Assembly: GCA_002104905.1 (NCBI GenBank)
Contig: MCFE01000138.1
Span: 93,486-157,485, forward strand
Length of the DNA stretch: 64,000 nt
DNA from: Basidiobolus meristosporus CBS 931.73
Lineage: Eukaryota > Basidiobolomycota > Basidiobolomycetes > Basidiobolales > Basidiobolaceae
Reading direction: 5' to 3'
In this document: positions 9,065 to 64,000 of the stretch, in pieces
How positions within the stretch are numbered: the stretch's first letter is position 1
Layout: every line of letters starts with the position of its first letter
Position numbers and translations under genes: made by a program
The notes under the pieces: model-generated
What the model saw: the letters and a program-made list of their open reading frames with translations, nothing else
The model's database searches: none
What the model was told of the DNA's origin: nothing

Positions 9065-9384
9065 CTTTGAGAACTACTGAGTTCATTGCTGAATTCACTC
9101 TGGAATATATAGCATGGGAACCATCATAACACGGTTACTACATTGATGGTAGCAATAGTTAGTTAACTTTGATCAGATCTTAAATTAGCATTCCCTCTAC
9201 CATCATCGACTCAATCGCATTGATATCGCGTGGTTTCCATGATTACAGTACGATAAATACACCAATATATACACATATGCTTTTGATAATATTTCACCTG
9301 TAGTAGGGTAATTCACGAATCACGGCTGATGATGTTTCATATTAATATAGGGTGACCAAATGAAATGTTTATTTAATCAATGTA

Positions 9385-24200: not shown

Positions 24201-24645
24201 GCTTGGGAAGAACCCAGGGATGATTTAAACAGTCTAGTTCATCCGGTATAAAGTAGCACTTTTCTAGGATTGGATTCATTACTAAGCCGTATCTCTTACA
24301 TTTGTGCATCGATAACAACAGTGTCGTGAACGACCATTACTCACTACTCAGTATCATCTAGACAATTGCTCCGTTTACAACTGGTTTATTGACCATTACA
24401 TAGGAAAAGATCTATGTACTTCGTCTTTGAGGCATCCATTGAATTTCAGTTTAATTTAGTCTGCCAAACCCGGGATTTTGTATTTATTGATCGTAAATTC
24501 AATTGCCATATCTTCATTATGAAAAGACACTGATGGGTAACGACAAAACAATAGGTAAAGATACTTTATGCTGCTTGCTTCGAGTGATGGTAGTACTTCA
24601 AGAATATTTCCTTTCAAACTCTTTCGTATGGACTAAGTACAAGCT
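24201..24645. other. Intergenic upstream of tRNA-Leu
   Basis: No gene. Parts (GTCTAGTT.ATCCGG at about 24231) recur at 52617, showing that the duplication carrying the tRNA began here. Confidence 0.4.
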
Positions 24646-24727
24646 GGTGAGGTGGCCGAGTGGTCTAAGGCGCTGCGTTCAGGTCGCAGTCTCTTCGGAG
24701 GCGTGGGTTCGAACCCCACCCTCATCA
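24646..24727 (+). tRNA. tRNA-Leu (anticodon CAG)
   Basis: 82 nt cloverleaf. Acceptor GGTGAGG pairs with CCTCATC (one G-U), D stem GCC/GGC with AGTGGTCTAA loop, anticodon stem CTGCG/CGCAG with loop TTCAGGT giving CAG, a short variable arm TCTCTTCGGAGGC typical of class II tRNA-Leu, T arm GTGGG-TTCGAAC-CCCAC, discriminator A. No intron. A short TTTT terminator follows at about 24732. A and B box internal promoter sequences (TGGCCGAGTGG; GGTTCGAAC) are intact. Confidence 0.95.
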
Positions 24728-25097
24728 TCTATTTTACTCTTAGCTTGCACAAAAATGATAAGAGGAAATATCACAATGCTAACAGTCACTGAGCAGTCTG
24801 TCAATCTCGAATCTTTGTGTTACCTAAGTCAATCCGGTAACCCTGCCAGACACACTCTCTAATATCAAACTTTTCGGTGGAGGGCAGCATCACTAAAGAC
24901 TGAGGGTGAGTATGTTAGTACGTAAGCGAAAATCTAATATTAATGCCCGCAGCTCTGATCATGATACAGGTGTGTGCAAGTAAAAAGCTAATCACAAGTA
25001 ACAACAAGTATAAGAATGTCATTTGGATTTTATTGATTGAGAATTTTCAGTTGTAGCGTGGTGATGACTACCTACATCTTCAGCTCATGTCATCGCA

Positions 25098-25595
25098 CTA
25101 ATTGTATTGAACGTTTTGCTCTGGACAATCTTCTACGCATTGCATCTCTGCCACAGGGGTTGTGTATTGTATATCTTGGGTGGGCTGCATCAGGACGTAG
25201 GGAGAGAAAGAACTATCTTCCAAGTGTTCCGCTCCCTTTTGCTTAGCATATTCTAATGCATTGGCCCTACCCTCCAGTTCGAGACTGGGCCCTGCTTGAT
25301 ACTTGACATTGAAGCCTTTGTTGCTGTTGGCGTTAGCAATGTTCAGGTTATCGTGCTTTCTGGTCACCGTGGTGAAAACCTGGCGCAATAACGGGGATTC
25401 GACATTCGTCGTCTTAACGACAGGCAAAACTCGAGCGTTTTGGTAGCAACCGCTCGCATACTGTGCACATGGTAAGCTGCGATAATGAACCCCTCTATAC
25501 TCGCGAGTACATGGAGAAGAACAGCCGATTGGGGCAGCAACGGCAACTTGAAGAGCGGCAAGGCTTAGAATCACTGCTACGGTAGTAGAGCGCAT
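25098..25595 (-). CDS. Small secreted protein family A, copy A3 (intact)
   Basis: 165 residues. Signal peptide MRSTTVAVILSLAALQVAVAA, then PIGCSSPCTREYRG with paired cysteines, two more cysteines (SLPCAQY, SGCYQN), the block SPLLRQVFTTVTRKHDNLN, QAGPSLELEG, EYAKQKGAEHLED, and a final CVEDC pair before the stop. TATATA at 25637-25642, about 42 nt upstream of the start, in a conserved ATATAGCATGGGA context also seen before A1 and A2. B3 lies 375 bp upstream on the same strand. Differs widely from A1 in the Cys-flanking regions while the central block is almost unchanged. Confidence 0.8.
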   Translation of the reverse strand: MRSTTVAVILSLAALQVAVAAPIGCSSPCTREYRGVHYRSLPCAQYASGCYQNARVLPVVKTTNVESPLLRQVFTTVTRKHDNLNIANANSNKGFNVKYQAGPSLELEGRANALEYAKQKGAEHLEDSSFSPYVLMQPTQDIQYTTPVAEMQCVEDCPEQNVQYN

Positions 25596-25969
25596 GCTGA
25601 AGAATAGCTGAGAAATAAGCTAGTTGCATAGGCCGCTATATAGCATGGGAGGCTATATAATAAGGTTAAGTCGAGGGCATAAAGTGAGTCTTGTTAGATT
25701 GCGCATGTTTTCCATTCTGTTATTGACTTTATCGAGGAAGCCTGTAACATATAAAACACATGCACTGGAATGACAGCCTCTGTATATATATATATGGTTC
25801 TATCACCGCTGCCCATACTTCTCTTCAATACTCACAATGACATTGTGTACAACGATAAGTGCCACTGTTTCTGTGTGTGCATATCAGAAAATTCTTGAGT
25901 ACTTGTACATCATCAGCATACCGAGTAATATGTTGCTCATTTTATTTCGTAAGTTTACTTTTACTAGAC

Positions 25970-26515
25970 TTAATGTCTGTTTCCACTGAAATATCTAACT
26001 TTGAAGTGGCGACGAGCAGATCTCTTATACTTCTTGTACCCACCTCTAAGCGCACGCGCTGCTGGCTGAGTGATGATAATTTGTGGCTGTTGCTGCTTGG
26101 GCTGGTACAGGGTTTGATCAATGACCTGCGCTTGGTCGAACTGGTTTGAGTTGGACAAGGCATTGGCTTTACTGGAGGAATGGCCATTGATTTTGTCCAG
26201 CAAAGCTTGGGATGGTTGAAGATTGGAAATATCGAACCCTTGCAACCCAGAGAATCCTGGCTGCTCACCCGAAGTCTCGCTTGTCTGCATTGGCTCACTC
26301 ATCTCCGAATCATCCCCCTCCTCAGTTGACGGCTGGTATTCTTGACTGGGGGCCGAAGTGTCCTGATAACAAGCACCCTGTTGTTCGACGCATGGCTCAT
26401 TGGTGAAGGCTACCTGGGAGTCACCGAGTGGGGTAGCGGAGATTGCTTGCAACGAAGCGATGGCGGAAGCTAGCAAGAGGAAGGAAAGCTGCATGACTGG
26501 CTGGTGGAGTCTCAT
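25970..26515 (-). CDS. Small secreted protein family B, copy B3
   Basis: 181 residues. The first ATG (26515) gives MRLHQPVMQLSFLLLASAIASLQAISA; the Met at residue 8 (MQLSFLLLA) aligns with the start of B1 and may be the real start. Mature part has two cysteines (NEPCVEQQGACYQD), an acidic middle, FDISNLQPSQALLDKINGHSS, ALSNSNQFDQAQVIDQTLYQP, QPQIIITQPAARALRGG and a basic tail KKYKRSARRHFKVRYFSGNRH with a conserved Lys-Arg. The duplicate B5 at 45.9 kb is about 95% identical. Kex2 cleavage at YKR-SA would release a cationic peptide of about 17 residues (inference). Confidence 0.8.
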   Translation of the reverse strand: MRLHQPVMQLSFLLLASAIASLQAISATPLGDSQVAFTNEPCVEQQGACYQDTSAPSQEYQPSTEEGDDSEMSEPMQTSETSGEQPGFSGLQGFDISNLQPSQALLDKINGHSSSKANALSNSNQFDQAQVIDQTLYQPKQQQPQIIITQPAARALRGGYKKYKRSARRHFKVRYFSGNRH

Positions 26516-27752
26516 GCGAATTTTGACGATTTATATCACCTCGATCCCACTCAATTAGGCTTTGTTCATAGCACTAGCTTTATGCGAGCTAGATTGATTT
26601 AACCTTTGCTACTTTACCTCTTCGTACCAAGGCTTCAAAGTGTGAAGAATGAGGGAGATCTGGTCAATGATATCCTTAATATCGTTCAAAATTCTCTCAG
26701 TTTTTGCAATAACTATCCGTGTTAGTAAGGACTTTGGTAATTTTTTACTAATGAGCTTGAGGGTTACCGTCGAGAAAGTCCAAGGTCATTGCGGTCAATT
26801 TCAATGGGGTTTGGTACTCCTTTGTATCAGTGTAGTACTGTAAGCTTAACATGCACTTTTGGTATTGTTATTCCATCTTTAAGGCAAGTATCTCTTACGA
26901 TAGTCCTGTCATTGCCTGGAAGGTATTGTCCTTTGGTAGTGCTGTTTTCTTGCTATACACATGCTTAAATATATTGCTGATCTGACCCTGCCTCAACTGG
27001 AGAGCAGCCACCACAGTCAAGCTTTGGGGCAGGCTTATTAAATTAACCTGTTATTACAAGAACCTAGGGTTGTCGCTGATTGGTGAACAATACGACTGTC
27101 ATGGGGTGTACAGCACAGTACAGGCGAGAATAAATTGATCAGCTGTTTGCCAAGAGTTGGGGATATTGAGTGGATAGTGCTTGGGATAGTTGAGGCTGCC
27201 TTGGAATTTCTTGTTGTAGTACACGCGTTTTCAATTAGTTATTTGTCAAGAAACAAGCCAAATGTGACTGTTCACTTTATTCGTGTTACGCTTTATCTAT
27301 GCTGCTACAATCGATAGCTTGGATGGCGATGCTTTCTTGCAAGACACATGCACTTATCTATTGCAAACTTTACCCTGCCACAGATGGAGTACAGCGTCGG
27401 ATTAAGAGCTCAGCCACCGACTACCACGGTCATTCTTTTGGGCAGGTCGATTATTTAACCTGTTATTTCAAGAACAGACTCATTGCTGATTGGTGCAAAT
27501 CCTTGTCACCAATGACCGGCATGGTGCATAGAGACGGTGCCGGCAAGAAGGAAATATTCATGGATGTGTTTAGCTAGTACTGGTTTCCTCAGGTAATGTT
27601 GCAGATTTGGCCTCAACTGTAACCATTCATGATTTCTGGATCATTTCTCCAAGCTTGGCCTAAGACTCAGCACTTTAGGTGGGAAGCCGCTATACTTAGT
27701 AGAAAAGGGCACATGAAGCAGCCAACACTAAGCCACCACCTGGATAAGGTGA
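26516..27752. other. Intergenic between B3 and H1, possible small gene remnants
   Basis: Almost identical to 46441-47719, so conservation alone says little. On the minus strand about 26640-26860 encodes a helical stretch (KLPKSL..R..IAKTERILNDIKDIID) kept in both copies. On the plus strand 27299-27577 is open for 92 residues with several cysteines. The segment at 26990-27100 is repeated at 27395-27510 (shared TAACCTGTTATT.CAAGAAC and GCTGATTGGTG). None is firm enough to call. Confidence 0.35.
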
Positions 27753-33690: not shown

Positions 33691-35320
33691 CTAAATTTCG
33701 ATTTTCGAACAAGTGAGCAGTTGGGTAGAGTGGCGTCTATCTGTAGCTCAAGCTTCTGGAGAACTGGTTGGGTGAAGGCTTGAGTAGTGGGTCCCTGCTG
33801 ATGATTTCGATCCATGTCGAGGGCGTTGTCCTCTGGAGCCTAGTGTTGACATTGGCATCTTCAAGTAATTGCGAGATGGCAAGGTTATTAAAGACTTGGG
33901 GAACGCGTGAGGCTGGCAACAGAGCAACGAAAACCAAGCGCACTGGAGCAGTCAGAGGTTGGCAAGTCTGAGTGGATGGTCACCAGTAGCCGCTACAATA
34001 AAGTTCGACTACCGACTTACTCTTTTCCGTTTTTTATGCAAAGTTGTGTGCCCGCTTAAACATTCAGCTATGAGTTTTGATTTTAAAGATCAGAAAACTG
34101 TAATCGTAATCATACAAGTATGTCATTTTGCAAACAAAATTTTAAGTATTTTTCTTTTCTTTGCTTGCTGATTTTCAATATGAATATGTAGCGAGAGAGA
34201 TTGGTATTTTGATTTGATTTTTGAATGATATTTGGTTAACAACAAGCTGTCAGAATGTGCAGACCGTCCTCGCCAGGCTGTTGGAATAATCAACCGGCAA
34301 GTTCATCAACTGAACAGGTCCTAAGGTCCCGAAAGACCGATCGGCCACTGTTCACACTTCCCTTTACGGACAGCGCACTACGTCTCATCTACCAGCTTGG
34401 TATTAGTGTCTTTGTTGGGAAACAAAGACTGGGAATGTACTATATACATAATCCTGTAAAGTACAGTCGTAACGATACCAAACGACAGATGCCCCCTATT
34501 TATAGGGAAAAAATCGATAAAAATTTTCACTCATTTCGTGGCCAAATCCCATAATATTGAAATCGATGAAAATAACAGTATTATATATACTACTCCGGAC
34601 TAGAGTAATTGACTATGAAATAACCAACTACGTAAGAACAGTGCCATTCCTGTGTGCACGCTTCAAGCCCTTGCTTGAGAAATCGTAGTATGAGTCGTTT
34701 TGCGTCTCACGAATAATGCAATCGTATGTTGACTTGAACCAAAAATCACATTTACGGCAATTTAACCCCCAATATCGATACAACTATTTACAGATCGATG
34801 GAATGAGTACACAAACATTGAAACTGGCGCTAAATAGAGCTCACTGACATCTTAAGGTAGGAGCCCACCAGTTCTCCAAATGCGGTAGTTGATACACAAC
34901 GCTGATTGAGCTTCTCTACCCGGCTATGTTGCATGCACTATTTACCCTTGTACCAACCAAATGTAAAGTGTCCCTGTTCCTCCGGTGTGTGTCGTTGTGG
35001 GGAATTGCCAAATGTCGATTCTTTTTGGACTAGTACACCGTGTCTACCGCGGATTGATAGTCTATGATACTGTGAGAGTAGGGTAGTCGCGCAAAGAGGG
35101 CTTATTTGTCTTGCATACTCAATATTCTCAGTTAAGGCTGATATATCTATTAGGCGCAATTGTCAGCACAATGAGTGTATTGAATATTTTGTTCTTTCAC
35201 ACATTATGTCTCTGTTACTGGGGTTGTGTACTGTACATCTTGGGTGGGCTGCATCAGAACGTAGGGAGAGAAAGAACTATAGTCCTTTTGCTCGGCATAT
35301 TCTAATGCGTTGCCCCGACC
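33690..35320. repeat. Segmental duplication K, copy 1 (with 50780-52313)
   Basis: About 1.6 kb matched at about 95% by eye. Contains an open frame of 99 codons at 34255-34554 (MCRPSSPGCWNNQPASSS...) that is open in both copies (51309-51608) with a handful of changes, and a frame at 33943-33737 (minus, MRLVFVALLPASRVPQVF...) also open in both. Neither is recognised. The block ends in the 3' end of a family A gene. Confidence 0.65.
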
Positions 35321-40502: not shown

Positions 40503-41231
40503 TTAGAGGCTCGAGAACACCTTGATGGCATCCTCAGCGGTGGATCGTGCGCTTGCTGGGTTAGCTCCAGTGACAACTCGGCCGTCAGTTTGTGTAAAAT
40601 CGGCAAACGGAGTGGGGGGTGCCACATACTCGGCTCCAACAGCGGCCGCTCCTTCTTCGATTGTAGCCACATTGGCTGATTTGATAATATCAAGCAGGCT
40701 GAGCATCACCTCACCCTCCGTGGTGAACCCGGTGACCTTCTTGCCAGCAATGATGGATTTGCCTGTGGTGCTGTCAACGATGCCTGGGAGAATGGCTGGT
40801 CCATGACACACAGCTGAAACAACACCTCCACGCTTGTATATGTCCTCGGCAATATGCTGTAGGCCACGAGCCGTAGGGTAATCCCACAAGGTCGCGTGCC
40901 CGGCAGAGGCAAAGAATAGGCCATAGTCAGCAGGGTTGAGGTCCGACGCCTTGCGAAGATGTGAGTTCAGTTTGACATTGAATGGATGTGAAGGGTCGTT
41001 CAGCACCTTTTGATCATCCTCGGAGAGAAAGTCTTTCGACAAGGAGTGCTCATCGACTCCGTAGGTACCAGTCTCGGAGGCGAAGTCAACCTCGAACCCG
41101 GCCTCAACAAGCGCTTCGTAAGGATGCAATGCTTCCGTATAGAAAAGTCCAGTCTTACTACCATTGGCGTAGAAGGGCTCGTTATAGCTGGTGATGGCTA
41201 GTAGTGCTCTGCGTGGAAGGTTGGCTGGCAT
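40503..41231 (-). CDS. Hsp31/DJ-1 family protein (glyoxalase III-like), copy 1
   Basis: 242 residues, the usual length of fungal Hsp31-type proteins, which convert methylglyoxal to lactate without glutathione and act as holdase chaperones. Nucleophile elbow SAVCHGPAILPG gives Cys142-His143; Glu33 (FYTEALHP) is the conserved acidic residue next to the Cys, and Glu172 fits the third member of the triad in VTGFTTEGE. Intronless. TATATAA (minus) at 41275-41282. Cytosolic; no signal peptide. Higher G+C and frequent CpG set it apart from the transposon zones. Copy 2 at 43 kb is about 95% identical. Confidence 0.95.
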   Translation of the reverse strand: MPANLPRRALLAITSYNEPFYANGSKTGLFYTEALHPYEALVEAGFEVDFASETGTYGVDEHSLSKDFLSEDDQKVLNDPSHPFNVKLNSHLRKASDLNPADYGLFFASAGHATLWDYPTARGLQHIAEDIYKRGGVVSAVCHGPAILPGIVDSTTGKSIIAGKKVTGFTTEGEVMLSLLDIIKSANVATIEEGAAAVGAEYVAPPTPFADFTQTDGRVVTGANPASARSTAEDAIKVFSSL

Positions 41232-41871
41232 TGTAATTTAGTTCTGAATACCAAACCAGGTTCATCGAGTCACGTTATATAATGGGCTCGTGCAACTGGA
41301 TGACAAATTGATCGAAATTTCTGGCAAATGATCATTTTTTTTTGATGATGATTGCTTATCAAGTAGTTGAGATACTGACCATTTTTGGTTAGAACTACGA
41401 TGGCTTTCATGGTGTGTCATGTAATATACATCAAGCAGCGGGGGATAGACATGACCGCCTATGCTTTGATTATCTTTACGTTCTAGTTACGAATCTAATT
41501 TTGGGCTGAGTGTCTTCGGCGAGATGAAGGATTCAAATACGTTGCTTCCGTGTCTTTAGAAAGTCACTTATCGAGGTACAGTGCTTCGTTTACTGTCAGA
41601 CTAGTTAGATTTCAGCTTACATGTACGTTACCTGTCGTCTGGCTATTTACGTAGCTAAATATTCGTGAAGCCGTATAGACTGCCACTTGGAAGAATCGAA
41701 TCGTGATTGAGCACGCAAAATTTTATTGACACGTGATGCAATCACGGAGGTATTACAAAGGCTGGAACAGGTAATGCTGTGGATGTCAGATCTGAGATAA
41801 TACCACATTTCACTCAGTGCTTAGACCCACAGAGTAAATTCCCAACCGGGTAGGTTTCATGTAGCGATCCA
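41232..41871. other. Intergenic upstream of Hsp31 copy 1
   Basis: No gene. The stretch AAAGGCTGGAACAGGTAATG (41758-41777) resembles AAAAGCTGGACCAGGTAATG (43799-43818), the sequence at which copy 2 of Hsp31 loses similarity to copy 1. The two may be recombination end points. Confidence 0.45.
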
Positions 41872-43071: not shown

Positions 43072-43887
43072 TCAAAGACTCGAGAACACTTTGATAGCAT
43101 TCACCGCAGTAGATTTGGCACTTGCAGGGTTAGCGCCAGTGACCACACGACCATCAGTCTGAGTAAAGTCGGCAAAAGGAGTAGGGGGTGCCACATACTC
43201 TGCCCCGACCGCCGCTGCTCCTTCCTCGATTGTAGCCACATTGGCCGATTTGATCAGCTCAAGCAGATTTAGCATTTCCTCACCCTCAGTGGTGAACCCA
43301 GTAACCGTTTTGCCAGCAATGATGGACTTACCAGTGGTACTGTCCATAATACCTGGGAGAATGGCGGGTCCATGACATACAGCCGAAACCACACCCCCGC
43401 GCTTATAAATGTCTTCAGCAATATGCTGCAGGTGACGAGCTGTAGGATAATCCCACAGGGTTGCGTGGCCAGCAGAGGCAAAGAACAGCCCGTAGTCAGC
43501 AGGGTTGAGATCTTCCGCCTTGTAAAGCTGCGAGTTCAGCTTGACATTGAAAGGATGTGAAGGGTCGGCCAGCACCTTTTGATCATCTTCGGACAGGAAA
43601 TCCTTAGAGAGGGAGTGCTCATCCACTCCGTAGGTACCAGTCTCGGACGCAAAATCGACCTCAAACCCGGCCTCAACAAGCGCTTCGTAAGGATGCAATG
43701 CTTCGGTGTAAAACAGTCCGGTTTTACTGCCGTTGGCGTAGAAGGGCTCGTTATAGCTGGTGATGGCTAGTAGTGCTCTGCGTGGAAGGTTGGCTGCAAA
43801 AGCTGGACCAGGTAATGTGAGATAATACTGATTCGTCCGGCGCTTGCATTGTTTGTAAGTATAGATGAACTGATTCCATATCGACAT
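43072..43887 (-). CDS. Hsp31/DJ-1 family protein, copy 2 (altered start)
   Basis: From residue 32 (ANLPRRALLAITSYNEPF) it equals copy 1 with about 13 changes in 240, all outside the active site; Cys171-His172 in SAVCHGP and the matching Glu residues are kept. The sequence differs abruptly before ANLP: the copy 1 ATG-Pro is absent, and the open frame runs on to an ATG at 43887, giving 29 extra residues (MSIWNQFIYTYKQCKRR...) unlike any family amino end. TTTTGCAG directly before the homologous codons could be a splice acceptor, so a short upstream exon is the alternative. The gene may use a new promoter or be poorly expressed. Confidence 0.85.
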   Translation of the reverse strand: MSIWNQFIYTYKQCKRRTNQYYLTLPGPAFAANLPRRALLAITSYNEPFYANGSKTGLFYTEALHPYEALVEAGFEVDFASETGTYGVDEHSLSKDFLSEDDQKVLADPSHPFNVKLNSQLYKAEDLNPADYGLFFASAGHATLWDYPTARHLQHIAEDIYKRGGVVSAVCHGPAILPGIMDSTTGKSIIAGKTVTGFTTEGEEMLNLLELIKSANVATIEEGAAAVGAEYVAPPTPFADFTQTDGRVVTGANPASAKSTAVNAIKVFSSL

Positions 43888-44186
43888 TGACTGCCAATGT
43901 CATTAACTGGCGTGACACTGCAAGTCACTATACCTGCTAGTAGTTCACGCTTGGACGATTATCGCATAATTTTGGTTAAATAGCACTTACTTCACTTAAG
44001 CTGAGTATTCAACCATGGTATTATTAACTACGTTAGTCTTGAAAGTTACATTGTGTGTAGTGTACAGGGTATTGGGTCATGGATGTTGGTTATCGTTAAG
44101 ATAACTGTCGTTTGCTATTGCTTCGGTGCATGTGGGATTTCATTTGCTGTTTATTGATTATCTATATGTTGGTGCTAGTCTTTACT
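43888..44186. other. Intergenic
   Basis: Nothing seen except a minus-strand AATAAA at about 44148-44153 serving the next gene. Confidence 0.4.
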
Positions 44187-45888: not shown

Positions 45889-46440
45889 CTAATCCCAGTA
45901 TCTGTTTCCACTGAAATATCTAACTTTGAAGTGGCGACGAGCAGATCTCTTATACTTCTTGTATCCCCCTCTAAGCGCACGCGCTGCTGGCTGAGTGATG
46001 ATAATTTGTGGCTGTTGCTGCTTGGGCTGGTACAGGGTTTGATCAATGACTTGCGCTTGGTCGAACTGGTTTGAGTTGGACAAGGCATTGGCTTTACTGG
46101 CAGAATGGCCATTGATGTTGTCCAACAAGGCTTGGGACGGTTGAAGATTGGAAATGTCGAACCCTTGCAACCCAGAGAATCCTGGCTGCTCACCCGGAGT
46201 CTCGCTTGTCTGCATTGGAGCACTCATCTCCGAATCATCCCCCTCCTCAGTTGACGGCTGGTATTCTTGACTGGGGACCGAAGTGTCCTGATAACAAGCA
46301 CCCTGTTGTTCGACGCATGGCTCATTGGTGAAGGCTACCTGGGAGTCACCGAGTGGGGTAGCGGAGATTGCTTGCAACGAAGCGATGGCGGAAACTAGCA
46401 AGAGGAAGGAAAGCTGCATGACTGGCTGGTGGAGTCTCAT
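45889..46440 (-). CDS. Small secreted protein family B, copy B5
   Basis: 183 residues, near-identical to B3 through the signal peptide, Cys pair, acidic stretch, ALSNSNQFDQAQVIDQTLYQP and KKYKRSARRHFKVRYFSGN, but with a different last part (RYWD instead of RH) because a few bases at the stop changed. Lies in the duplicated block with H2. The second Met (MQLSFLLLV) is the likely start, as for B3. Confidence 0.8.
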   Translation of the reverse strand: MRLHQPVMQLSFLLLVSAIASLQAISATPLGDSQVAFTNEPCVEQQGACYQDTSVPSQEYQPSTEEGDDSEMSAPMQTSETPGEQPGFSGLQGFDISNLQPSQALLDNINGHSASKANALSNSNQFDQAQVIDQTLYQPKQQQPQIIITQPAARALRGGYKKYKRSARRHFKVRYFSGNRYWD

Positions 46441-47719
46441 GCGAATTTTGCCGATTTATATCACCTCGATCCCACTCAATTAGGCTTCGTTCATAGCGCT
46501 AGCTTTATGCGAGCTAGATTGATTTAACCTTTGCTACTTTACCTCTTCGTACCAAGGCTATACAGTATAGGCTGCACTTCAAAGCGTAAAGAATGAGGGC
46601 GATCCGGTCAATGATACCCTTAATATCATTCACAATTCTCTCAGTTTTTGCAATAGCTATCCATATTGGTAAGGACTTTGGTAATTGTTCACTAATGAGC
46701 CTAAACATTACCGTCGATAGCTCCAAGGTGATTTCGGTCAATTTCAATGGGTTTTGGTACTCCCTTTGTATCAGTGTAGCTTTTCTGGATGGTACTTTGT
46801 CCTGTGAGCTTGGTATCTTTGTTACATCTTTAAGGCAAGTATCTCTTACGATAGTCCTATTATTACCTGGAAGGTATTGTCCTTTGGTAGTGTTGTTTTC
46901 TTGCTATACATATGCTTATAAATATTGCTGAACTGACCCTGCCGCAACTGGAGAGCAGCCACCACAGTCAAGCTTTGGGGCAGGCGTATCAAATTAACCT
47001 GTTATTACAAGAACCTAGGGCTGTTGCTGATTGGTGAACAATACGACTGTCCTGGGGTGTACAGCACAGTACAAGCAAGAATAAATTGGTCAGTTGTTTG
47101 CCAAGAGTTGGGGATATTGAGTGGATAGTGCTCGGGATAGTTGAGGCTGCCTTGGAATTTCTTGTTGTAGTACACGCGTTTTCAATTAGTTATTTGTCAA
47201 GAAACAAGCCAAATGTGACTGTTCACTTTATTTGTGTTACGCTTTATCTATGCTGCTACAATCAATAGCTTGGATGGCGATGCTTTCTTGCAAGACACAT
47301 GCACTTATCTATTGCAAACTTTACCCTGCCACAGATGGAGTACAGCGTCGGATTAAGAGCTCAGCCACCGACTACCACGGTCATTCTTTTGGGCAGGTTG
47401 ATTACATAACCTGTTATTTCAAGAACAGACTCATTGCTGATTGGTGCAAATCCTTGTCACCAATGACCGGCATGGTGCATAGAGACGGTGCCGGCATGAA
47501 GGAAATATTCATGGATGTGTTTAGCTAGTACTGGTTTCCTCAGGTAATGTTGCAGATTTGGCCTCAACTGTAACCATTCATGATTTCTGGATCATTTCTA
47601 CAAGCTTGGCCTAAGACTCAGCACTTTAGGTGGGAAGCCGCTATACTTAGTAGAAATGGGCACATGAAGCAGCCATTAGCATAATGACACAACACTAAGC
47701 CACCACCTGGATAAGGTGA
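46441..47719. other. Intergenic between B5 and H2
   Basis: Duplicate of 26516-27752. The minus-strand frame 46747-46514 (IAKTERIVNDIKGIIDR) stays open over 77 codons here, longer than in copy 1; still not called. Confidence 0.35.
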
Positions 47720-50779: not shown

Positions 50780-52313
50780 TTTGACTTTCAAATAAGTTAA
50801 CAGTTGGGTAGAGTGGCATCTTTCTGTATCTCAAGCTTCTGGAGAACTGATTAGTTGAAGGCTTCAGTAGTGGGTCACTGCTGATGATTTCTATCCATGT
50901 CTTTTGGAGCCTAGTGTAGACATGGGCATCTTCAAGTAATTGCGAGATGGCAAGGTTATTGAAGACTTGGGGAACGCGTGAGGCTGGCAACAGAGCAACG
51001 AAAACCAAGCGCACTGGAGCAGTCTGAGTGGATGGTCATCAGTAGGCGCTACAACAAAGTGAGACTATCGACTTACTCTTTTCCTATTTTATGCAAAGTT
51101 GTGTGCCCGCTTAAACATTCAATTATGAATTTGATTTTAATGATCAGAAAACTGTAATCGTAATCAAACAAGTATGTCATTTTGCAAACAAAATTTTAAG
51201 TATTTTTCTTTTCTTTACTTGCTGGTTTTCAATATGAATATGTAGCGAGAGAGATTGGTATTTTGATTTGATTTTTCAATGATAGTTGGGTAACAACAAG
51301 CTGTCAGAATGTGCAGACCGTCCTCGCCAGGCTGTTGGAATAATCAGCCGGCAAGTTCATCAACTGAACAGGTCCTATGGTCCCGAAAGACCGATCGGTC
51401 ACTGCTCACACTTCCCTTTACGGACAGCGCACTACATGTCATCTACCAGCTTGGTATTAGTGTCTTTGTTGGGAAACAAAGACTGGGAATGTACTATATA
51501 CATAATCCTGTAAAGTACAGTCGTAACGATACCAAACAACAGATGCTTCCTATTTATAGGAGAAAAATCGATAAAAATTTTCACTCATTTGGTGGACAAA
51601 TCCCATAATATTGAAATCGACGAAAATAACAGTATTATATATACTACTCCGGACCAGATTAATTGACTATGAAATAACTAACTACGTGAGAACAGTGCCA
51701 TTCCTGTGTGCACGCTTCAAGCCCTTGCTTGAAAAATCGTAGTATGAGTCGTTTTGCGTCTCACGAATAATGCAATCGTATGTTGACTTAAACCAAAAGT
51801 CACATTTACGCCCCCCAATATCGATGCAACTATTTACAGTTCGATGGAATGAGTACACAAACATTGAAACTGGCGCTAAATAGGGCTCACTGACATCTCA
51901 AGGTAGGAGCCCACCAGTTCTCCAAATGCGGTAGTTGATACACAATGCTGATTGAGCTTCTCTACCCGGCTATGTTGCATGCACTATTCACCCTTACACC
52001 AACCAAATGTAAAGTGTCCCTGTTCCTCCGGTGTGTGTCGTTGTGAGGTATTGCCAAATGTCGATTCTTTTTGGACTGGTACACTGTGTCTACCGTGGAT
52101 TGATAGTCTATGATACTGTGAGAGTAGGGTAGTCGCGCAAAGAGGGCTTATTTGTCTTGCATACTGATTATTCTCAGTTTAGGTTGATTTATCTGTTAGG
52201 CGCAATTGTCGGCACAATGAGTGTATTGAATATTTTGCTCTTTCATGCATTGTGTCACTATTACTGGGGCTGTGTACTGTGCATCTTGGGTGGGCTGCAT
52301 CAGAACGTAGGGA
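50780..52313. repeat. Segmental duplication K, copy 2, ending in a family A 3' remnant
   Basis: Counterpart of 33690-35320. A 16-bp deletion removes GAGGGCGTTGTCCTCT relative to copy 1, and GGCAATTTAA is lost near 51810. Its right end (52200-52313) is the 3' part of a family A gene, as in copy 1, but here the rest of A and B is absent. Confidence 0.65.
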
Positions 52314-53045
52314 CAATCTTCCCATTTTTACATAGTATTTCCTTCTTCGGCAAGTGTCTCCTTAGTCTTTGAAGCTCAGCATCCTCTCTCATTAGATAAT
52401 ATGGCTTGCCAAATGACTGGCAAGGGAGCAGTCACGTCCCTGCGATAAATAAAATGAGTAGGGGAGAGTAAGAGTAGCTGTTCCATATCGATAGAATCAT
52501 AAAGGCAAAAAGCGAGAGATTGAAGTGATTGTAGACAAACATGACCTCAGGAAGAACTTCAAGCACGCTTAGGAACAACACAACTCGGTCAGAGCACATT
52601 CTAAAAGTTTGAATAGTCTAGTTTATCCGGCATCGAGCATATAAATATGGCTTACCTTACCTTATCCATGTTTTGACCTGATTGGGTGAATTATCATTGA
52701 AACAGTTGTTACGTACTTAAAGAGTAATGTCCTTTAGAGAGTACGAAAAGGGATAACGTGTATGTTATCTTGTAGATTCGACGGGGTAGTGTAAGAATAT
52801 CTCTTTAAAAGGTTGGGGTGGTGACTTTGTAGAAATATATTCAAGCTAATATTCGTTCCTACTACGCTTTTCTGCCTATAACCAAAACTCCCTTTTATTT
52901 AGTTGCTTGTTTGGTATTTATACCTTATTGTGAGTCTGGTGATTTGTCTTTGATTTGCTTTTCCCTGGCTACTAAGTCGTCTTTGTATGCGTTGATGTCA
53001 GTTAACATCGAGTGCCTCTTTACTCTGTAACACAGTGTCCAAATT
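52314..53045. other. Intergenic before the tRNA copy
   Basis: No gene. Shares short blocks with 24.2-24.6 kb, the sequence before the first tRNA. Confidence 0.4.
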
Positions 53046-53127
53046 GTTGAGGTAGCCGGGTGGTCTGAGGCGCTGCGTTCAGGCCGCAGTCTCTTCGGAG
53101 GCGTGGGTTCGAACCCCGCCCTCATCA
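53046..53127 (+). tRNA. tRNA-Leu (CAG), second copy, possibly defective
   Basis: Same 82-nt layout as the tRNA at 24646 with anticodon CAG in loop TTCAGGC and an identical anticodon stem and variable arm. The acceptor stem starts GTTGAGG, so position 2 is a T facing T in CCTCATC, an unpaired site, and the T stem has a G-U (GTGGG/CCCGC). The A box is altered (TAGCCGGGTGG). It could be a pseudogene or a weak tRNA. TTTT follows at about 53132. Confidence 0.75.
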
Positions 53128-53444
53128 TCTGTTTTACCAAAAAATAATGGCAGCAACTATAAGAGGAAGTATCACATTCCTAACAGTTATTGAGCAGTCT
53201 AACCATTTCGAGTACGGTGACACCAAGATCAATCCATTAACAGTGATATGGTTATGTTCGGCTAGAAGCGCTGCCAGTTGAATATAACGATACATTATAT
53301 TTGACCCCTCCTACATCATAGGCTCCAGTGGAGGATAGAGTTATTAAACCCTGAGGCTTAGTAGTTAAGTATGTAAGCAAGCATGCAGTACTAGCGCTTG
53401 CAGTTGTTATGTTGACTATTTTGCTCTGCTCAATGTTCTACACA

Positions 53445-53900
53445 TTATGTCGCTACTACAGGGGTTTTATATTGTACATCCTGAGAGGACTGCGTCAGAA
53501 CGTAGGGATATGAAGAACTATCGCCCGAGTTTTCCGTTCCCCTTTGCTTAGCATATTCTAATGTGTTGGCCCCACCCTCCAGTTCGAGACTAGGTCCTGC
53601 TTGATACTTGACGCTGAAGTCTTCATTGCTGTTGGCATTAGCAATGCTCAGGCTATGATACTTTTCGGTCACGGTGGTGATAACCTGGCGTAATAACAGT
53701 AATTGGACATTCGACATCCTAACGACAGGTAATACTCGGGCGTTTTGGTAGCAATCCTTGGCTTGTTGTGCATATGGTGAGCTATGATAATGGTCCTTTA
53801 TATACTCAAGAGTGCATAGGGAAGAACAGCCGCTTGGGGCAGCAACAGTCACTTAATTCGTGGCAAGGCTTAGAATCACTGCTACGGTAGTAAAGCGCAT
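53445..53900 (-). pseudogene. Secreted protein family A, copy A5 (nonsense in signal peptide)
   Basis: Start at 53900 gives MRFTTVAVILSLATN, then TAA where A3 has a codon in its signal peptide. The following 135 codons are open to the end (CSSLCTLEY, LLLRQVITTVTEKYHSLS, QAGPSLELEGG, final VVAT). The usual TRKHDNLN has become TEKYHSLS and the final Cys pair is missing. As at 25.1 kb it stands about 0.4 kb from the tRNA. Confidence 0.65.
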
Positions 53901-57828: not shown

Positions 57829-59442
57829 CCAGGGGGGACATTGCCTGTAGGAGGGAGAAAGTCACCAATTGGTGAAATCTTTATTTTGGTTGAAACAAAG
57901 AAGCCAGTGCTACTGTTGTAGCCTTCATACAAGGATGGGTAGCTGAGGGGAATTGGTAGGTAAGTTAATAGGGAGAAATGATAGCTCTTCAGTGCTCAAG
58001 ATACTGCTCAGTGGGCAGGGGTGTAGCAAGAGACATGAGAATAGTTTATGAACAAAACTAATAAGGGGAATATGATATGGATTGATACAGATCATAAAGA
58101 GAGTGTGCTACTTAAGATATTACTGCCAAAGGTCTGTCAAGTATTTAGCTATGCCAACTTGGGTTTTTCTGACTACAGTATATATTGAGCAAACTACTTT
58201 AAATTAGAATCTCCAAGTATAGTTCTCCAGCAGGAGCCAGGTGTAGTGTGGTCAGTGCACTTTCAGACCTTGATCAGTGGGTTGTTGCAGTGGTGAAGGC
58301 TGAGATAGATTCTGGCTCTAAGGTAGAGAAGTTTCATCTTGTAGGGCATAAACCTAAAAGCATCAATAATAGCATATCTGTAGGGGCTGTTGTGCATCAA
58401 CATTTAAAACTTAGCCAATTTTACTCCATCTGAAAATCTAGTACCCTAACTGATTTTCCCTAACCCAAACATAACAAATCCCAGTTACAGTTTATTTTAT
58501 CCCACCTCAGAATCTATCTTTAGCTATCACACCTGATCTATTTTCAAATGGCCACTACATTATCAACCTATCTGCCAAGCCTTCCCAGGTGATTAGTCAT
58601 CTGAGATCTATCCAACCACTGTGCAGTTGCCAAGACATCAGTTGATTGATGATGTAATTTGCATTTATCTTATGCACCTTTGAACACCCAAATTGATTTC
58701 AATCAATCTAGTCCCTTGGCGCTTACTAATTCACCTTGATCAGAAAAGTATAAATAAAGTTTACTGAACCTTTTGGTTTAGTGTGTGTCTCAACAAAATT
58801 AAGATTCTGTCTCAGCAAAAATAAGAATCCAACAATTCAGTTCTAGTTTCTATCCAAGCCTAGTATATCTAGCACTCCAAAGAACACCAAGCCTAGCCTG
58901 CCTAGCAAACAAATATCATTGTCTTTATAGCCAACCCAGCTTATCCAAGACCAATATTAGATCAGAATCTTTCTGCTAATATTTCCGCCACTCTATGACA
59001 GTTGTAAGATTCTGCACTTAATTGTCCCTTTGGTTCAGTTAAACCATTCAAGAGTTTTATCACACTTTCTCTTGGATACAACAGGGGCATTCAGGCAGAT
59101 GATGTAATGCACCAAATGGAAAACTTGTCAAGCATAGTGCAGTTGCTAGAAGTAAGAAAAAGGAGTGGTGAGCCAAATTCCAAGACAGGGAAGACAAACT
59201 GCATATGTAGAAGCTGGCAGTTGGGGGCTGAAGTTGTTGGAGGATTGACAGCAAGTAGCTTGTAGAGTGCTTGTCTTTCCAGGGTGATTCTCTTCTTCAG
59301 GTGTGCTCCAGAGTCTATTCCAGTAGGAAGGAGTGGAAAGCCATGATATGTAAAGAAACTTGAGCCAGTAGAGTGCAGCTCTCTAGGTATATTGGACTAC
59401 CCAGAGGCACTGTCTTGGCAATGGAAGTCTGAAGATGATTTG
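57829..59442 (-). mobile_element. Non-LTR retrotransposon (LINE) copy A, interrupted by solo LTR 3
   Basis: The 3' end of the element is at the left: GGAGGGAGAAAG then the palindrome TCACCAATTGGTGA (57862-57875) and the complement of an AATAAAGATTT signal. It runs right through the carboxy-terminal coding region to 58387, is split by solo LTR 3, and continues at 59084 with codons matching 61590-61940 of copy B (for example HLPECP). Beyond 59442 the Gypsy LTR copy 4 begins. The frame is broken in many places. Unlike the other copies, no TTAGGG remains at its left edge. Confidence 0.75.
58388..59083 (+). mobile_element. Solo LTR of the Gypsy family, copy 3, inside LINE copy A
   Basis: 696 bp, TGTTGTGCATCAACA ... 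GGATACAACA, flanked by GGGGC at 58383-58387 and 59084-59088. The uninterrupted site is present in LINE copy B (TGTAGGGGCATTCAGG, about 61588), which has a single GGGGC. This is direct proof of the insertion and of the LTR limits. Confidence 0.93.
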
Positions 59443-60140
59443 AGTTGTCCATCAACATTTAAAACTTAGCCAATTTTACTCCATTAGAAAATTTAGTACC
59501 CTAACTGATTTTCCCTGATCCAAACATAATTAATCCCAGTTATGGTTTATTTTATCTCATTTCAGTATCTATCATTAGCTATTACACCTGATCAGCTCTC
59601 ATATGGCTTTTATGTTATCAAGTTATCTGCCAAGCCTTCCCAGGTGATTAGTCAACTGAGATCTATCCAACAACTTAGCGGTTGCCAAGACATCAGCTGA
59701 TTAATGAAGCAGTTTTAATTTATCTTATGCACTTATCAGCACCCCTACAGATTTGAATTAGTCCAGTCTCTTTGGGCTTACTAATTCAACTTGTCTAGAA
59801 AAGTATAAATAAGGTTTCCTGAACCATTTGGTTTAGTGTGTGTCTCAACAAAATTAAGATTGTATCTCTGCAAAATCAAGAACTCAACAATTACCTTCTA
59901 GCTTCCAACAAGCCTAGAATATCTAGCACTCCCAAGAACACCAAGCCTAAGCTGCATAGCAAACCAACTTGTTTGCCTTTATAGCCAAACCCAGCTATAT
60001 ACAAGACCAATATTACACCAGAACCTCTCTGCTAAAACTTCTGCCACTCTCTGACAATTCTAAAATTCTGCACTTAGTTGTCCCTTGGGTTCAGTTTGAC
60101 TACTCAGGAGCTTTATTACACTTTTCTCTTTGATACAACA
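59443..60140 (+). mobile_element. 5' LTR of a Gypsy element, copy 4
   Basis: 698 bp, about 85-90% like copies 1-3; first bases mutated (AGTTGTCCATCAACA), end TGATACAACA. No target duplication follows because an internal region with gag continues, so it is the left LTR of a broken element. TATAAATAAG about 59810. Confidence 0.8.
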
Positions 60141-60329
60141 CTTTCTTTAGTTGAGTCCATTACATTCTACTACTTTACCAGATATCCTCAGCAGCAAGTA
60201 ATCCAAATCTATCCATGTTGGAAGAAGCTCACAGAAATTGGCAAGTGCTTACTGTGCAAGTTGAGAGTATTGTGCATGAAAGAAACACCTTGATGCTTGA
60301 GCACTCAAAGCTTGCTTAGACAAGATCTG

Positions 60330-61049
60330 ACAATCATTGCAGCAATGAACTCCTTAAAGCTATTTCTGGTTACCAAGATGCAATTGGTATTATCAAAGAA
60401 GCTCTAGAGAATGTTGCTTTAGTAATTGACAGCATTGACAATCTGCCAAGCCTTACTCTGCATCAGCCACCAAGAAGTCATGCCTTTTGATGCTCCAGAT
60501 ATATGTCTCCCACTAGACCTGCCCCAGTGGTTGTCCCAAGATGCTTGCCTCTTTAGGCTGAAGGAGCCAATGACATAAAGAATCCTAGTGAGTTTCTTTA
60601 CAAGTTTGGCCATGTCTTAGCTGTGCACCAGCTAAACCCCAACATCAATTGGGCTAGACTTCTGCCTCTCTGTTTCACCATGCAAGATGCTGACTGGGTT
60701 TAAGTGAGCATTCCTTTGAATTGTACATGGAAAGTTGCCCAGAACCTCTTTTGCAGCCATTTTGAAGATCCCCTCAAGGAAGCGCATCTAAACTGCAACT
60801 TATGGAAAACTAAAATGCAAAAAGATAAATCAGTGCAACACTTCTGTCATAGATTCCAGAGACAAATGAGATTAGCTGGAGTTAGTGATGCCAATCCATT
60901 GCTTACTTCTCATTTTCTTTCAAACTTTTCATACCAGCTAGAGAGCAAAATTGCCATTGTCAAAGCATGTAACCCTGCACACACTTATGACAAAATCTCA
61001 GAGATATGTACACTTGCAATCACAATGACTGCAACTGTTAGCCAGGCTT
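60330..61049 (+). pseudogene. Gypsy gag, truncated by telomeric repeats
   Basis: Codons NPSEFLYKFGHVL..HQLNPNINWARLLPLCF.MQDADWV, a TAA at 60701-60703, then VAQNLFCSHFEDPLKEAHLN, KSVQHFCHRFQRQMRLAGV and LSNFSYQLES. This is the order of the fungal Ty3/Gypsy capsid region. The frame ends at SQA where TTAGGGTTAGGG begins (61048); zinc knuckle, protease, RT and integrase are all missing. The gag is thus cut by a former chromosome end. Confidence 0.8.
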
Positions 61050-61059
61050 AGGGTTAGGG
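61048..61059 (+). repeat. Internal telomere seed (TTAGGG)2
   Basis: Two exact TTAGGG units joined on the left to gag sequence and on the right to GGGGAGACAGTC, the 3' end of LINE copy B. It shows that a broken end was healed by telomere repeats and then received the LINE. Confidence 0.85.
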
Positions 61060-63017
61060 GGGAGACAGTCACCAACAGGTGAAATCTTTATTTCAGTTGA
61101 AACAAAGAAGCCAGCGCTACTGTTGTAGCTTTGATACAAGAGTGTGTAGCTGACGGGAATTTGTAGGTAAGTTGATAAGAAGTGATGATAGTTCTTCAGT
61201 GCTCAAGACACTGTTCAGTGGGAAGGGGGGTAGCAAGAGAGGTAAGAATGACTTGTGAACAACATTAATGAGGGGAATGTGATAAGGACTGATATACATC
61301 ATAAAGGCTGTGTGCTGCTGCAGATATTGCTGCCAAAGGTCTGTCAAGTACTTCAGGTAGGCCAGCTTGGGTTTTTCTGACTGCAGAATATAGTGAGCAA
61401 ACTTCTTGACTTCAGGATCTCCAGTATAGTTCTCCAGCAGGAGCCAGGTATTGGGTGGTGTGTTCTCTTCCAGGCCTTAATCAGTGGGTTGTTGCAGTTG
61501 TGAAGTCTGAGGTATAATATGGTTCTAAGGTAGAGAGGTCTGATCTTATAGGGCATAAACCCAAAAGCACCAAGAATAGCCTGTCTGTAGGGGCATTCAG
61601 GCAAATGAGGCACCAAGGAGGTAATGCACCATACTGCAAACTTGTCAAGCTTAGTGCAGTCTCTAGAAGTAAGAGAGAGAAGTGGTAAGCCAAATTCCAG
61701 GACAGGGAAGACAAACTGCTTGAGTAGAAGGAGGCAGCTGGGAGCTGAAGTTGTAGGAGGAGTAACAGCCAGTAGCTTGTGGAGTGCCTGTCTTGCTAGG
61801 ATAATTCTCTTCTTCAGGTGTGATCCAGAGTCTAGTCCAGTAGGAAGGAAAGGAAAGCCAAGATATGTAGCAGAAACCTGAGCAGGTAGAGTGGAGTTCT
61901 CCAAGCTGATGGGAGAGCCCAAAGGTACTGTCTTTGCAATGGAAAGCTGGAGATTATTCTTCTGCAGATACTGGTGGATGGTCTGGGAGTCTTGTTGCAA
62001 ATTGGAGGAGGATATTCTGATGTCATCAGCAAAGAGAGTAACCAGGCAGTCAGCTGAGAGTCTTGGGAAATCATTCAGGAAGATAGCAAACAGTATAGGA
62101 CCAAGCACAGAGCCTTGAACCACTCCATTAAGAACTGAGAACACAGCTGATTGCTCACTTGGGTACAGAATTCTTGCTTGTGGATCCAGAAACAGAGACC
62201 TGACAAGCAGGGTGAGAGAGGGACTGGAGAAGCATTGCAACTTGGACCAAAGAAGATTTCTGTCAACTGAATCAAAGGCCTTAGTAATATCAAACAGAAC
62301 AGAGGGATACTTGCACTGGAGAGAGTGATCTTGGCTAAGTATGATTGCATATTCTAAGGAGAGGCTAGGAACAAAGCCAAACTGTGCAGGGTGAAACTTG
62401 AGGGAGTCAGAGTAGAGCTCCTGAGTAAGCAGAAGCTCAAACACCTTTCTGCAGGTGGGCAGCAGAGATATTGGCTTGTAGGAGCTATGATCCAGGTGCT
62501 TTCCTTTACCCTTGTACAGTGGCAGAACATTTGCAAAGGACCATTCCCCAGGAGTAGAAAGCTGGGCTGAGCATTGCTGAAACAGTGGAAGCAGAAGTGC
62601 AGACATGGCCTTGGTACCAGTCTTCAGAAGCTCATAAGAGATTGTGTCCACACCAGGAGCAGTAGAGTTGGGAAGCCTCTTGAGCACATTATGGATTCTC
62701 CTTTGATCAAGTGCAAGTGGGATGGGCAGAGTCTTGAAGTCAGGATGAAAGCCAGGAGTTGAGTACTGCTTTGTAGAGAAGAAGATGTTAGCCAGCTGTT
62801 CTGTTGAAGGTAACTTCCTGGAAGAGGGCCTCATTGCCCTGTAGAGTCTTGATACTGCTCTTGTTATAGAGTTGGAAGATTGCAGAGGCAAGGAACTCAT
62901 AATATGATCCCAGAGCTGAGTATGCAGAGTGTGGTGAATTGCCTTGGAGTGGTGTATTGCTGTCAGGAGGAGTTTCTCTGTTTTTGGGTTAGGGAAACTC
63001 AGGTAGATTTGTTGCAG
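61060..63017 (-). mobile_element. LINE copy B (5'-truncated, 1.96 kb)
   Basis: 3' end at 61060 with hairpin TCACCAACAGGTGA (61069-61082); 5' end at 63017, where coding sequence stops at CAGGGTTAGGG. Contains the reverse transcriptase and the carboxy-terminal domain but no endonuclease or upstream ORF, so it is truncated at its 5' end like the others. Confidence 0.85.
61117..63017 (-). pseudogene. LINE reverse transcriptase, 5'-truncated with one frameshift
   Basis: The open piece (63041 to 61353) reads as 562 codons, but the first seven or eight come from telomeric/junction sequence and there is no ATG; the real coding part starts at QQIYLSFPN. RT motifs in order: NSTAPGVDTISYELLK (codons 125-140), YKPISLLPT (188-196), LFDITKAFDSVD with the catalytic Asp (249-260), GVVQGSVLGPILF (306-318), FADD (337-340). 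A single-base loss near 61475 moves the frame; the continuation, with YILQSEKPKLAY and LTDLWQQYLQ, ends at 61117. No endonuclease is visible. Family: non-LTR retrotransposon, clade undetermined. Confidence 0.88.
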
Positions 63018-63104
63018 GGTTAGGGGGAGGAAAGTCACCAAGTGGTGAAATCTTTATTTACTTATGACAAGTATCTAAAGTAGCCAAGTTAATCTGAAGT
63101 TAGG
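63016..63104 (-). mobile_element. LINE copy C (about 80-bp 3' stub)
   Basis: Starts after AGGGTTAGGGGG (63016-63027), hairpin TCACCAAGTGGTGA (63035-63048), AATAAAGATTT complement, then only some 50 bp of tail before the next GTTAGGGGG at 63099. Its tail differs from copies B and D, hence another subfamily. Confidence 0.75.
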
Positions 63105-63423
63105 GGGGGGAGACAGTCACCAACAGGTGAAATCTTTATTTCAGTTGAAACAAAGAAGCCAGCGCTACTGCTGTAGCTTTGATACAAGAATGAGTAGCTG
63201 AGGGGAATTTGTAGGTAAGTTAATAAGAAGTGATGATAGTTCTTCAGTGCTCAAGACACTGTTCAGTGGGAAGGGGGGTAGCAAGAGAGGTAAGAATGAC
63301 TTGTGAACAACATTAATGAGGGGAATGTGATAAGGATTGATATTCATCATAAAGGGAGTGTGCTGCTGCAGATATTGCTGCCAAAGATCTGTCAAGTACT
63401 TCTGGTAGGCCAGCTTGGGTTTT
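63099..63423 (-). mobile_element. LINE copy D (about 0.32-kb 3' piece)
   Basis: Junction GTTAGGGGGGGG at 63099-63110, hairpin TCACCAACAGGTGA (63117-63130), then sequence nearly identical to the 3' end of copy B including the last 76 codons of the protein (63395-63165, TDLWQQYLQQHTPF...). Stops at CAGCTTGGGTTTTT, inside what is coding sequence in copy B. Confidence 0.85.
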
Positions 63424-63799
63424 TAGGGGGGAGGGAAAGTCACCAAGTTGGTGAAATCTTTATTTGAGTTAAGAACTAATCTAAGTACAAATAAAGAAGC
63501 CAATTAAGAGGTCTAGAACCTCTCTAATAAGTAATCTAATCTATGTTTTGTTTCATCTCTAATGTTTGTTTCAATAAAGTAAAGCTCATTAGGGGTAAAT
63601 ATAAAATTCAGGGGTTTTGGGGGAAGTACAAATTGTAGGTGTTTCTGATCAATATAATCCAAGACTGGAACCCAGCCTGGGATTAGGTGTAGTAGGAAAG
63701 GTGTGTGGACTTGTAAGTAGCTCTGCCACATAGATCTTAGATGGTCCTGAGCCAGTAGTCTTGGTTTCTCAGCTTTTTGAAGTTTTGAAGCAAGCTCTG
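63424..63799 (-). mobile_element. LINE copy E (outermost, second subfamily)
   Basis: Junction TTTTAGGGGGGAGGG, hairpin TCACCAAGTTGGTGA (63440-63454). The 72-codon frame 63731-63513 (MWQSYLQVHTPFLLHLIPG...) is a diverged version of the copy B/D carboxy-terminal domain, with PP(K)PLNFIFTPNELYFIE in place of PPFPLNSVLSTEEL. The 5' end abuts the terminal TTAGGG tract directly. Confidence 0.82.
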
Positions 63800-64000
63800 T
63801 TAGGGTTAGGGTTAGGGTTAGGGTTAGGGTTAGGGTTGGGTTAGGGTTAGGGTTAGGGTTAGGGTTAGGGTTAGGGTTAGGGTTAGGGTTAGGGTTAGGG
63901 TTAGGGTTAGGGTTAGGGTTAGGGTTAGGGTTAGGGTTAGGGTTAGGGTTAGGGTTAGGGTTAGGGTTAGGGTTAGGGTTAGGGTTAGGGTTAGGTTAGG
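63800..64000 (+). repeat. Terminal telomere, TTAGGG repeats
   Basis: About 33 units running to the window edge, with one TTGGG variant (about 63836-63840) and TTAGG variants at the very end. Orientation (G-rich strand 5' to 3' toward the end) shows that the right side is the physical chromosome end. Confidence 0.98.

Follow-up and report, generated by a model that had tools for sequence, protein, structure and literature searches.

How does a chromosome end come to consist of retrotransposon pieces that all point the same way and alternate with telomere repeats? This question is raised by the end of contig C356 (157,485 bp) of Basidiobolus meristosporus CBS 931.73, whose last 64,000 bases form the window analyzed here, in an assembly of 89.0 Mb and 1311 contigs. 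A first-pass annotation of the window had described serial, one-oriented pieces that follow TTAGGG-like tracts at 61048, 63016, 63099, and 63421 and have a common 3'-end motif, the outermost adjoining the terminal TTAGGG tract (63799/63800 to 64000), and these observations were borne out. Its assumption of a single long interspersed nuclear element (LINE) family was rejected, as the four pieces derive from three elements: LINE A (twice), element D, which resembles a short interspersed nuclear element (SINE), and another LINE-type family. The elements, whose 5' ends face outward, form a community of telomere-specific retrotransposons of the non-long terminal repeat (non-LTR) class, in which two or more LINE families are joined by a SINE-like element. 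We consider it probable that they attach by telomere-targeted, target-primed reverse transcription (TPRT) on the G strand at chromosome ends, followed by telomerase capping.

Elements at the chromosome end and their orientation

Read outward, the array begins with an internal telomere tract on the plus strand, TTAGGGTTAGGGGGG (61048–61062), the last Gs of which are common to tract and element. It is followed on the minus strand by a LINE family A copy (61063–63019) with a mapped 5' truncation after ~1971 nt and an open reverse transcriptase (RT) frame (RVT_1, 2.2e-24); the stop-to-stop open frame of 566 amino acids that carries this LINE RT (61353–63053, minus strand) has its initial residues outside the truncated copy. 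A second plus-strand tract, (A)GGGTTAGGGGG (63016–63027), leads to the 3' tail of element D (~79 nt; 63026–63099, minus strand), identified by mapping to D, longer copies of which occur in locus L065 and elsewhere. Beyond the tract GTTAGGGGGGGG (63099–63110, plus strand) lies another LINE A copy (63107–63424, minus strand), mapped as 5'-truncated after ~327 nt and 96% identical to 61057–61356. The last internal tract, TTTTAGGGGGG (63421–63431, plus strand), precedes the 3' piece of the other family (63430–63798, minus strand), which has a LINE-type C-terminus and a 3' tag with an AAGTTGG loop; to the eye, a frame at 63513–63995 looks similar to the C-terminal part of homologue P0005. The terminal plus-strand telomere (63799/63800–64000) holds ~34 TTAGGG repeats according to Tandem Repeats Finder.

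The same arrangement recurs across the assembly. The 3'-end signature AGTCACCAAN{1,4}GGTGAAATCTTTA had 1527 matches genome-wide (1403 forward and 124 reverse) and none when read backward. Among the first 100 listed 3' ends (contigs C1–C96, compared by hand), 85 had TTAGGG within 14 nt upstream, against a chance expectation of ~0.4% for a gap of that size (15 x 4^-6), and a genome-wide search for the signature with TTAGGG within 14 nt upstream returned 1436 + 91 matches, some places being counted twice. The RT frame of the window gave 1793 first-look candidates. The 77 that were scored show 93–100% identity; 29 of these lie in open frames whose length is exactly 922 amino acids and 3 contain an internal stop (hand count). 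For polarity we used the 34 of the 77 matches on contigs of known extent (43 excluded) and set aside 5 on contigs shorter than 20 kb. In 27 of the 29 usable copies, the window copy included, the 5' side points to a contig end no more than 7 kb away. Contig C424 (312,558 bp; L091 and L092), perhaps a very small complete chromosome, starts with CCCTAA, finishes with TTAGGG, and has element D facing outward at both ends, so that polarity is set by the chromosome end and not by the strand.

Misjoining of repeat-rich contig ends could also produce arrays, and the strand bias of telomere 30-mers across the assembly (6978 forward vs 73 reverse) and the presence of arrays inside two contigs are in keeping with such an artefact. 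However, dozens of contigs have distinct junctions, each end of C424 has telomere repeats and elements that face outward, and many frames of 922 and 949 amino acids are open, which makes an assembly artefact highly improbable. Contigs are nearly always written so that the telomere comes last, which may be a convention of the assembler, and roughly 25 30-mer matches per tract, if assumed, would correspond to ~280 telomeric ends.

The LINE families and the SINE-like element

LINE A is ~4.6 kb long, a length calculated from the 5' end found in L083 together with two L070 copies. Its 5' region comprises a 100-bp tandem repeat near the 5' end and an internal TTAGGGTTAGGG. The latter had appeared to mark a telomere junction of fixed phase, with 44 of 44 inner 5' motifs joined to TTAGGG; this candidate was rejected because, in four fetched copies, TTAGGGTTAGGG is internal to the element's 5' region and is then followed by the tandem repeat. 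Open reading frame (ORF) 1 has a Cys-rich N-terminus, is split over two frames in L070, and gave only weak Pfam matches below the cut-off; at L070:2087–3131, it has a zinc-ribbon-like start (CxxC...CxC) and a coiled-coil-like region. A further end-associated block that belongs to none of these families, with TTAGGG motifs of its own, follows TTAGGGTTAGGG at L070:7004–7788 and at other ends. Inside the body of LINE A, and inside that of D, single TTAGGG motifs occur too, each reading in the same sense as the telomeric G strand.

ORF2 of LINE A is an open frame of 922 amino acids with a LINE-type RT (RVT_1, 2.6e-25). Four of its six solved-structure matches are named LINE-1 ORF2p, and one, over the same stretch, "RNA-directed DNA polymerase." The N-terminus matches Exo_endo_phos_2 weakly (3.3e-4 in L070, below the curated cut-off), as do five of seven aligned members up to E 0.1, and comparison of the endonuclease profile with nine ordinary APE LINEs gave a probability of 90.6 and E 1.3e-6 over residues 3–158. 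In four aligned sequences, Tyr93, Asp126/Asn128, Asp171, and Asp201/His202 are invariant, and the Glu that is invariant in nine of nine ordinary relatives is Asp33 in all four; we take all of these positions to be catalytic. A solved-structure search with the endonuclease domain profile returned no match, and no restriction-enzyme-like endonuclease was found in ORF2 by Pfam up to E 0.1. Both LINE families have the APE-type domain, as do those outside homologues that extend over the region. The first-pass annotation had likened the elements to endonuclease-lacking Penelope-like elements, an analogy that fails because ORF2 carries this domain; judged by Pfam, structure, and profile matches, the elements have an endonuclease and a LINE-type rather than a TERT-like RT. 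Over the 534 amino acids used, the second LINE family shares 45% identity with family A. It gave 83 matches among 626 candidates, copies of family A included, with many open frames of 949 amino acids. Between the window copy of LINE A and that in L046, 11 codon differences are synonymous and 22 non-synonymous, with no sign of strong selection.

Both LINE families and element D end in a common 3' hairpin and C-rich tail. In five 3' tags, AATAAA stands 33–48 nt upstream of where the excised piece ends and is followed by TCACC...GGTGA, with a variable loop, and a C-rich run; the hairpin, whose stem is invariant, folds in all four tails tried. Element D is ~528 bp long, with a longest stop-to-stop frame of 49 amino acids, and its genome matches comprise 61 listed from 402 first-look candidates, with 40 scored. 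Near its 5' end, D carries two matches to the general RNA polymerase III (Pol III) box consensus, separated by 43 nt: an exact B box and an A box with a single mismatch. The D RNA strand contains no TTTT, an absence seen in 3.9% of shuffles, and neither ARAGORN nor Rfam detected a tRNA in D. With its Pol III-type boxes, no coding frame, and a LINE-type 3' tail, D is a candidate SINE-like element.

Junctions and mode of attachment

We compiled 82 3' junctions from the window and the fetched loci, collapsing identical ones. TTAGGG-like units number 0, 1, 2, 3, and 4 in 7, 52, 16, 3, and 4 of them, although one of the seven zero-repeat junctions (L067:3361) was misparsed and does have TTAGGG there. 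The telomere association claimed in the first-pass annotation thus extends to 75 of 82 junctions, at which the 3' end is joined to at least one telomere-like unit. Three perfect repeats precede the 3' motif at no fewer than 58 places genome-wide (long G runs missed), compared with 1527 3' ends. Live terminal tracts measure 144–236 bp (median 206; 17 of 26 contig ends measured by script), and L092, which the script missed, brings the ends that terminate in TTAGGG repeats to 18 of the 26; this set omits the telomere-less contig ends L045, L048, L060, L062, L064, and L071, and includes the end of L040 as L076. The G run after TTA commonly totals 6–7 in family A, 5–6 in D, and 4 in the AGGGAAAG tag, which places the join within the G run.

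Short tracts could arise by template jumping, in which one RT event copies successive RNAs and the single TTAGGG derives from CCCUAA that each RNA bears at its 3' end from the junction of its donor. That the commonest tract is exactly one repeat (52 of 82) suits this explanation; G-run junctions without TTA (4 of 82), tracts of two to four repeats (23 of 82), and several truncated copies that bear the live telomere directly do not, and we regard it as distinctly unlikely.

The 5' analysis covered 102 junction sites, of which 27, with identical ones collapsed, could be assigned to a position on LINE A or D. Four complete or near-complete D 5' ends were then set aside, and the remaining 23 truncation points fell at 23 different positions, in agreement with the variable 5' truncation seen in the first-pass annotation. 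Overlap of the truncation points with the telomere repeat averaged 1.70 nt, compared with 0.75 nt for random joins (0 of 5000 simulations as high), and microhomology of at least 1 nt was found at 21 of 23 points versus 47% expected, mostly 1–4 nt in length. Complete 5' ends of LINE A (L083) and D (L091) also stand directly on the live telomere. Among 40 scored complete 5' regions, 28 reach the top score at 100% identity, which points to recent activity. Such identity, and the recurrence across several contigs of a D-to-A junction with one repeat, would also suit arrays that spread mostly from end to end through recombination or break-induced replication, with retrotransposition rare. Yet the different truncation points, the varied G-run lengths, and the many different 3' neighbors, counted with identical junctions collapsed, argue for many independent events, and predominance of recombination is unlikely.

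The orientation of the pieces fits priming from the G-strand 3' end, as the first-pass annotation had proposed. In the TPRT pathway that we favor, the element RNA would be held by its 3' hairpin, its C-rich 3' end would base-pair with GGG at a telomeric 3' terminus, and the element RT would extend the G strand from there. Where synthesis stopped early, the cDNA 3' end would itself become the chromosome end, to which telomerase would add TTAGGG from a short match; extension of this kind would explain the microhomology. Repeated rounds would build head-to-tail arrays. We prefer attachment to ends that erosion or breakage has left with about one repeat to mid-tract insertion. Final capping would fall to telomerase, and any service to the host, such as the help in maintaining ends that the first-pass annotation suggested, would be secondary. 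C880 encodes two pieces of a TERT RNA-binding domain above the curated cut-off, one with a TAG inside, perhaps an intron; a TERT domain is still encoded and may yield active telomerase.

Alternatively, the APE domain may nick the G strand within the TTAGGG tract, as in TRAS/SART and MoTeR elements, with TPRT from the nick and the distal tract kept or re-extended. The APE-type domain in both LINE families and the outside homologues supports this, as does an architecture like that of MoTeR, for which one study reports a newly gained, truncated MoTeR1 located one TTAGGG from the tract base (PMC7367193). However, insertion along a tract of ~34 repeats should leave long proximal tracts, whereas 68 of 82 junctions have one or two repeats, and one-repeat tracts are three times as common as two-repeat tracts, an excess that uniform insertion along the tract does not yield. 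The Glu-to-Asp change in the endonuclease is a further point against nicking, which we nonetheless judge quite possible, if short of an even chance. Two readings of the short tracts remain, namely attachment mainly to near-bare ends or loss of longer tracts by breakage, and the threefold excess of one repeat over two favors the former, though not decisively.

Several observations weigh against TPRT at near-bare ends followed by telomerase capping. The conserved endonuclease domain argues for use of nicking, and short internal tracts might be survivors, were longer ones to break as in MoTeR. The microhomology is also compatible with end-joining, only 27 of 102 5' junction sites were placeable, and the excess depends on mapping: a cruder first script gave a mean overlap of 1.43 (P 0.0012) with 3 of 26 rows dropped, and ~0.73, no excess, with those rows kept, its low rows arising from reference mismatches or the cut end of the reference. 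The hairpin is strongly distinct from shuffled sequences in one of four tails (z -3.84, -1.55, -1.84, and -2.47), and exact TTAGGG is missing at 15 of the first 100 listed 3' ends. The genome-wide test of orientation suggested in the first-pass annotation was largely passed, by 27 copies, with two exceptions among the 29, one on C558 (96 kb inside) and a second copy on C726 (57 kb inside). All of this evidence is computational and comes from a single assembly, in which misjoins are possible. Arrays with terminal-type junctions lie in the interior of these two contigs (C558:94510–99474, L007 and L043; C726:57485–60784, L005), and are either misassemblies or internalized chromosome ends.

The window also records earlier states of this chromosome end. 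An oldest LINE A-like copy on the minus strand has its 3' part at 57843–58387 (82–85% identical to a later copy in three stretches) and continues at 59084–59445 (86% identical to 61618–61869); its 3' edge has no TTAGGG in the junction list. Between the two parts lies a solo LTR (58388–59083), recognized by direct reading and repeat families and flanked by a 5-bp duplication, GGGGC. A second LTR element, which hit the same old copy at 59446, follows on the plus strand (59446–61047), with its LTR at 59446–60140 and a 5' body that looks gag-like by impression and is ended by a telomeric junction. Since this body is cut at 61047 and telomere repeats come next, the chromosome appears formerly to have ended there.

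Farther inward, SRP RNA (33720–34019 and 50803–51074), U3 (34245–34470 and 51299–51524, with SRP-U3 spacing alike in both), and tRNA-Leu(CAG) (24645–24729 and 53045–53129) each occur twice, probably reflecting a segmental duplication near the chromosome end. The window further contains similar copies of small secreted-looking proteins (8567–9963, 12834–13253, 25098–26530, 45889–46455, and 53445–53852), two of which had no match in a Pfam scan, and two DJ-1/PfpI genes (40503–41237 and 43072–43899). In a protein database clustered at 90%, a DJ-1/PfpI-family gene of the window is 79–97% identical to several proteins of B. meristosporus CBS 931.73 and 86% to B. ranarum. A search for viral contigs found none.

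Relation to known telomeric elements

Telomere-targeted LINEs are an established category, within which the APE lineage and the SINE-like partner described here appear new. Among known systems, the TRAS/SART endonuclease is of the APE type, Zepp is L1-like, Coprina Penelope-like elements are telomere-associated, and HeT-A, TART, and TAHRE of Drosophila attach serially to ends with the 3' end inward. The closest architecture is that of MoTeR1 and MoTeR2 of Magnaporthe oryzae, which are described with outermost 5' ends, head-to-tail arrays, TTAGGG between copies, and 5' truncation, all as found here, with MoTeR2 as a probably non-autonomous partner comparable to element D (PMC7367193). Internal MoTeR tracts range from half a repeat to >20, and breakage is reported for arrays with three or more repeats (PMC7367193). 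FoTeR of Fusarium oxysporum has upstream tandem repeats, recalling the 100-bp repeat of LINE A, and both FoTeR and MoTeR1 are assigned a restriction-enzyme-like endonuclease and grouped with CRE/SLACS (PMC12857005). In contrast, the Basidiobolus elements have an N-terminal APE-type domain with no other endonuclease match, and at least two LINE families together with a partner bearing Pol III-type boxes.

The elements share with silkworm TRAS/SART a telomere-repeat target and an ORF2 with endonuclease and RT, and 3' UTR (untranslated region) motifs of TRAS/SART have been proposed to pair with the target; at telomeres, those elements are described as full-length copies only, whereas truncated copies are common here (PMC4700185). 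The endonuclease found here is likewise APE-type. According to PMC10088271, Drosophila telomeres consist of elements alone, unlike the live TTAGGG tracts and TERT domain that persist in Basidiobolus, and Athena Penelope-like elements are telomere-associated, as here, but endonuclease-deficient with an RT close to TERT. The same paper lists Zepp (Chlorella) and GilM/GilT (Giardia), the latter placed in the CRE clade, as LINEs in telomeric repeats, as here, and names MoTeR1 as one fungal element among telomeric elements (PMC10088271). The word SINE occurs nowhere in the text of PMC10088271. In the titles and abstract openings searched, mostly of non-subscription literature, no telomere-SINE or Basidiobolus-telomere system like this one is described; telomeric-SINE phrases retrieved no paper, and titles and abstract openings on Zoopagomycota subtelomeres contain no description of such a system.

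A wider reading can be offered tentatively. A Pol III-transcribed SINE may have adopted the 3' tail of a telomere LINE, with LINE and SINE attaching to near-bare ends that telomerase then seals; a shift to priming from free ends may have gone along with the alteration of the endonuclease (catalytic Glu to Asp), and chromosome ends would be kept by two cooperating RTs. If our interpretation is true, an early-diverging fungus would provide the fungi with a second type of telomere-seeking LINE, the APE type, and with a candidate SINE restricted to telomeres. With more than 1500 3' ends in one genome, junction counts would make it possible to test whether nicks or free ends prime attachment, and how telomerase takes over.

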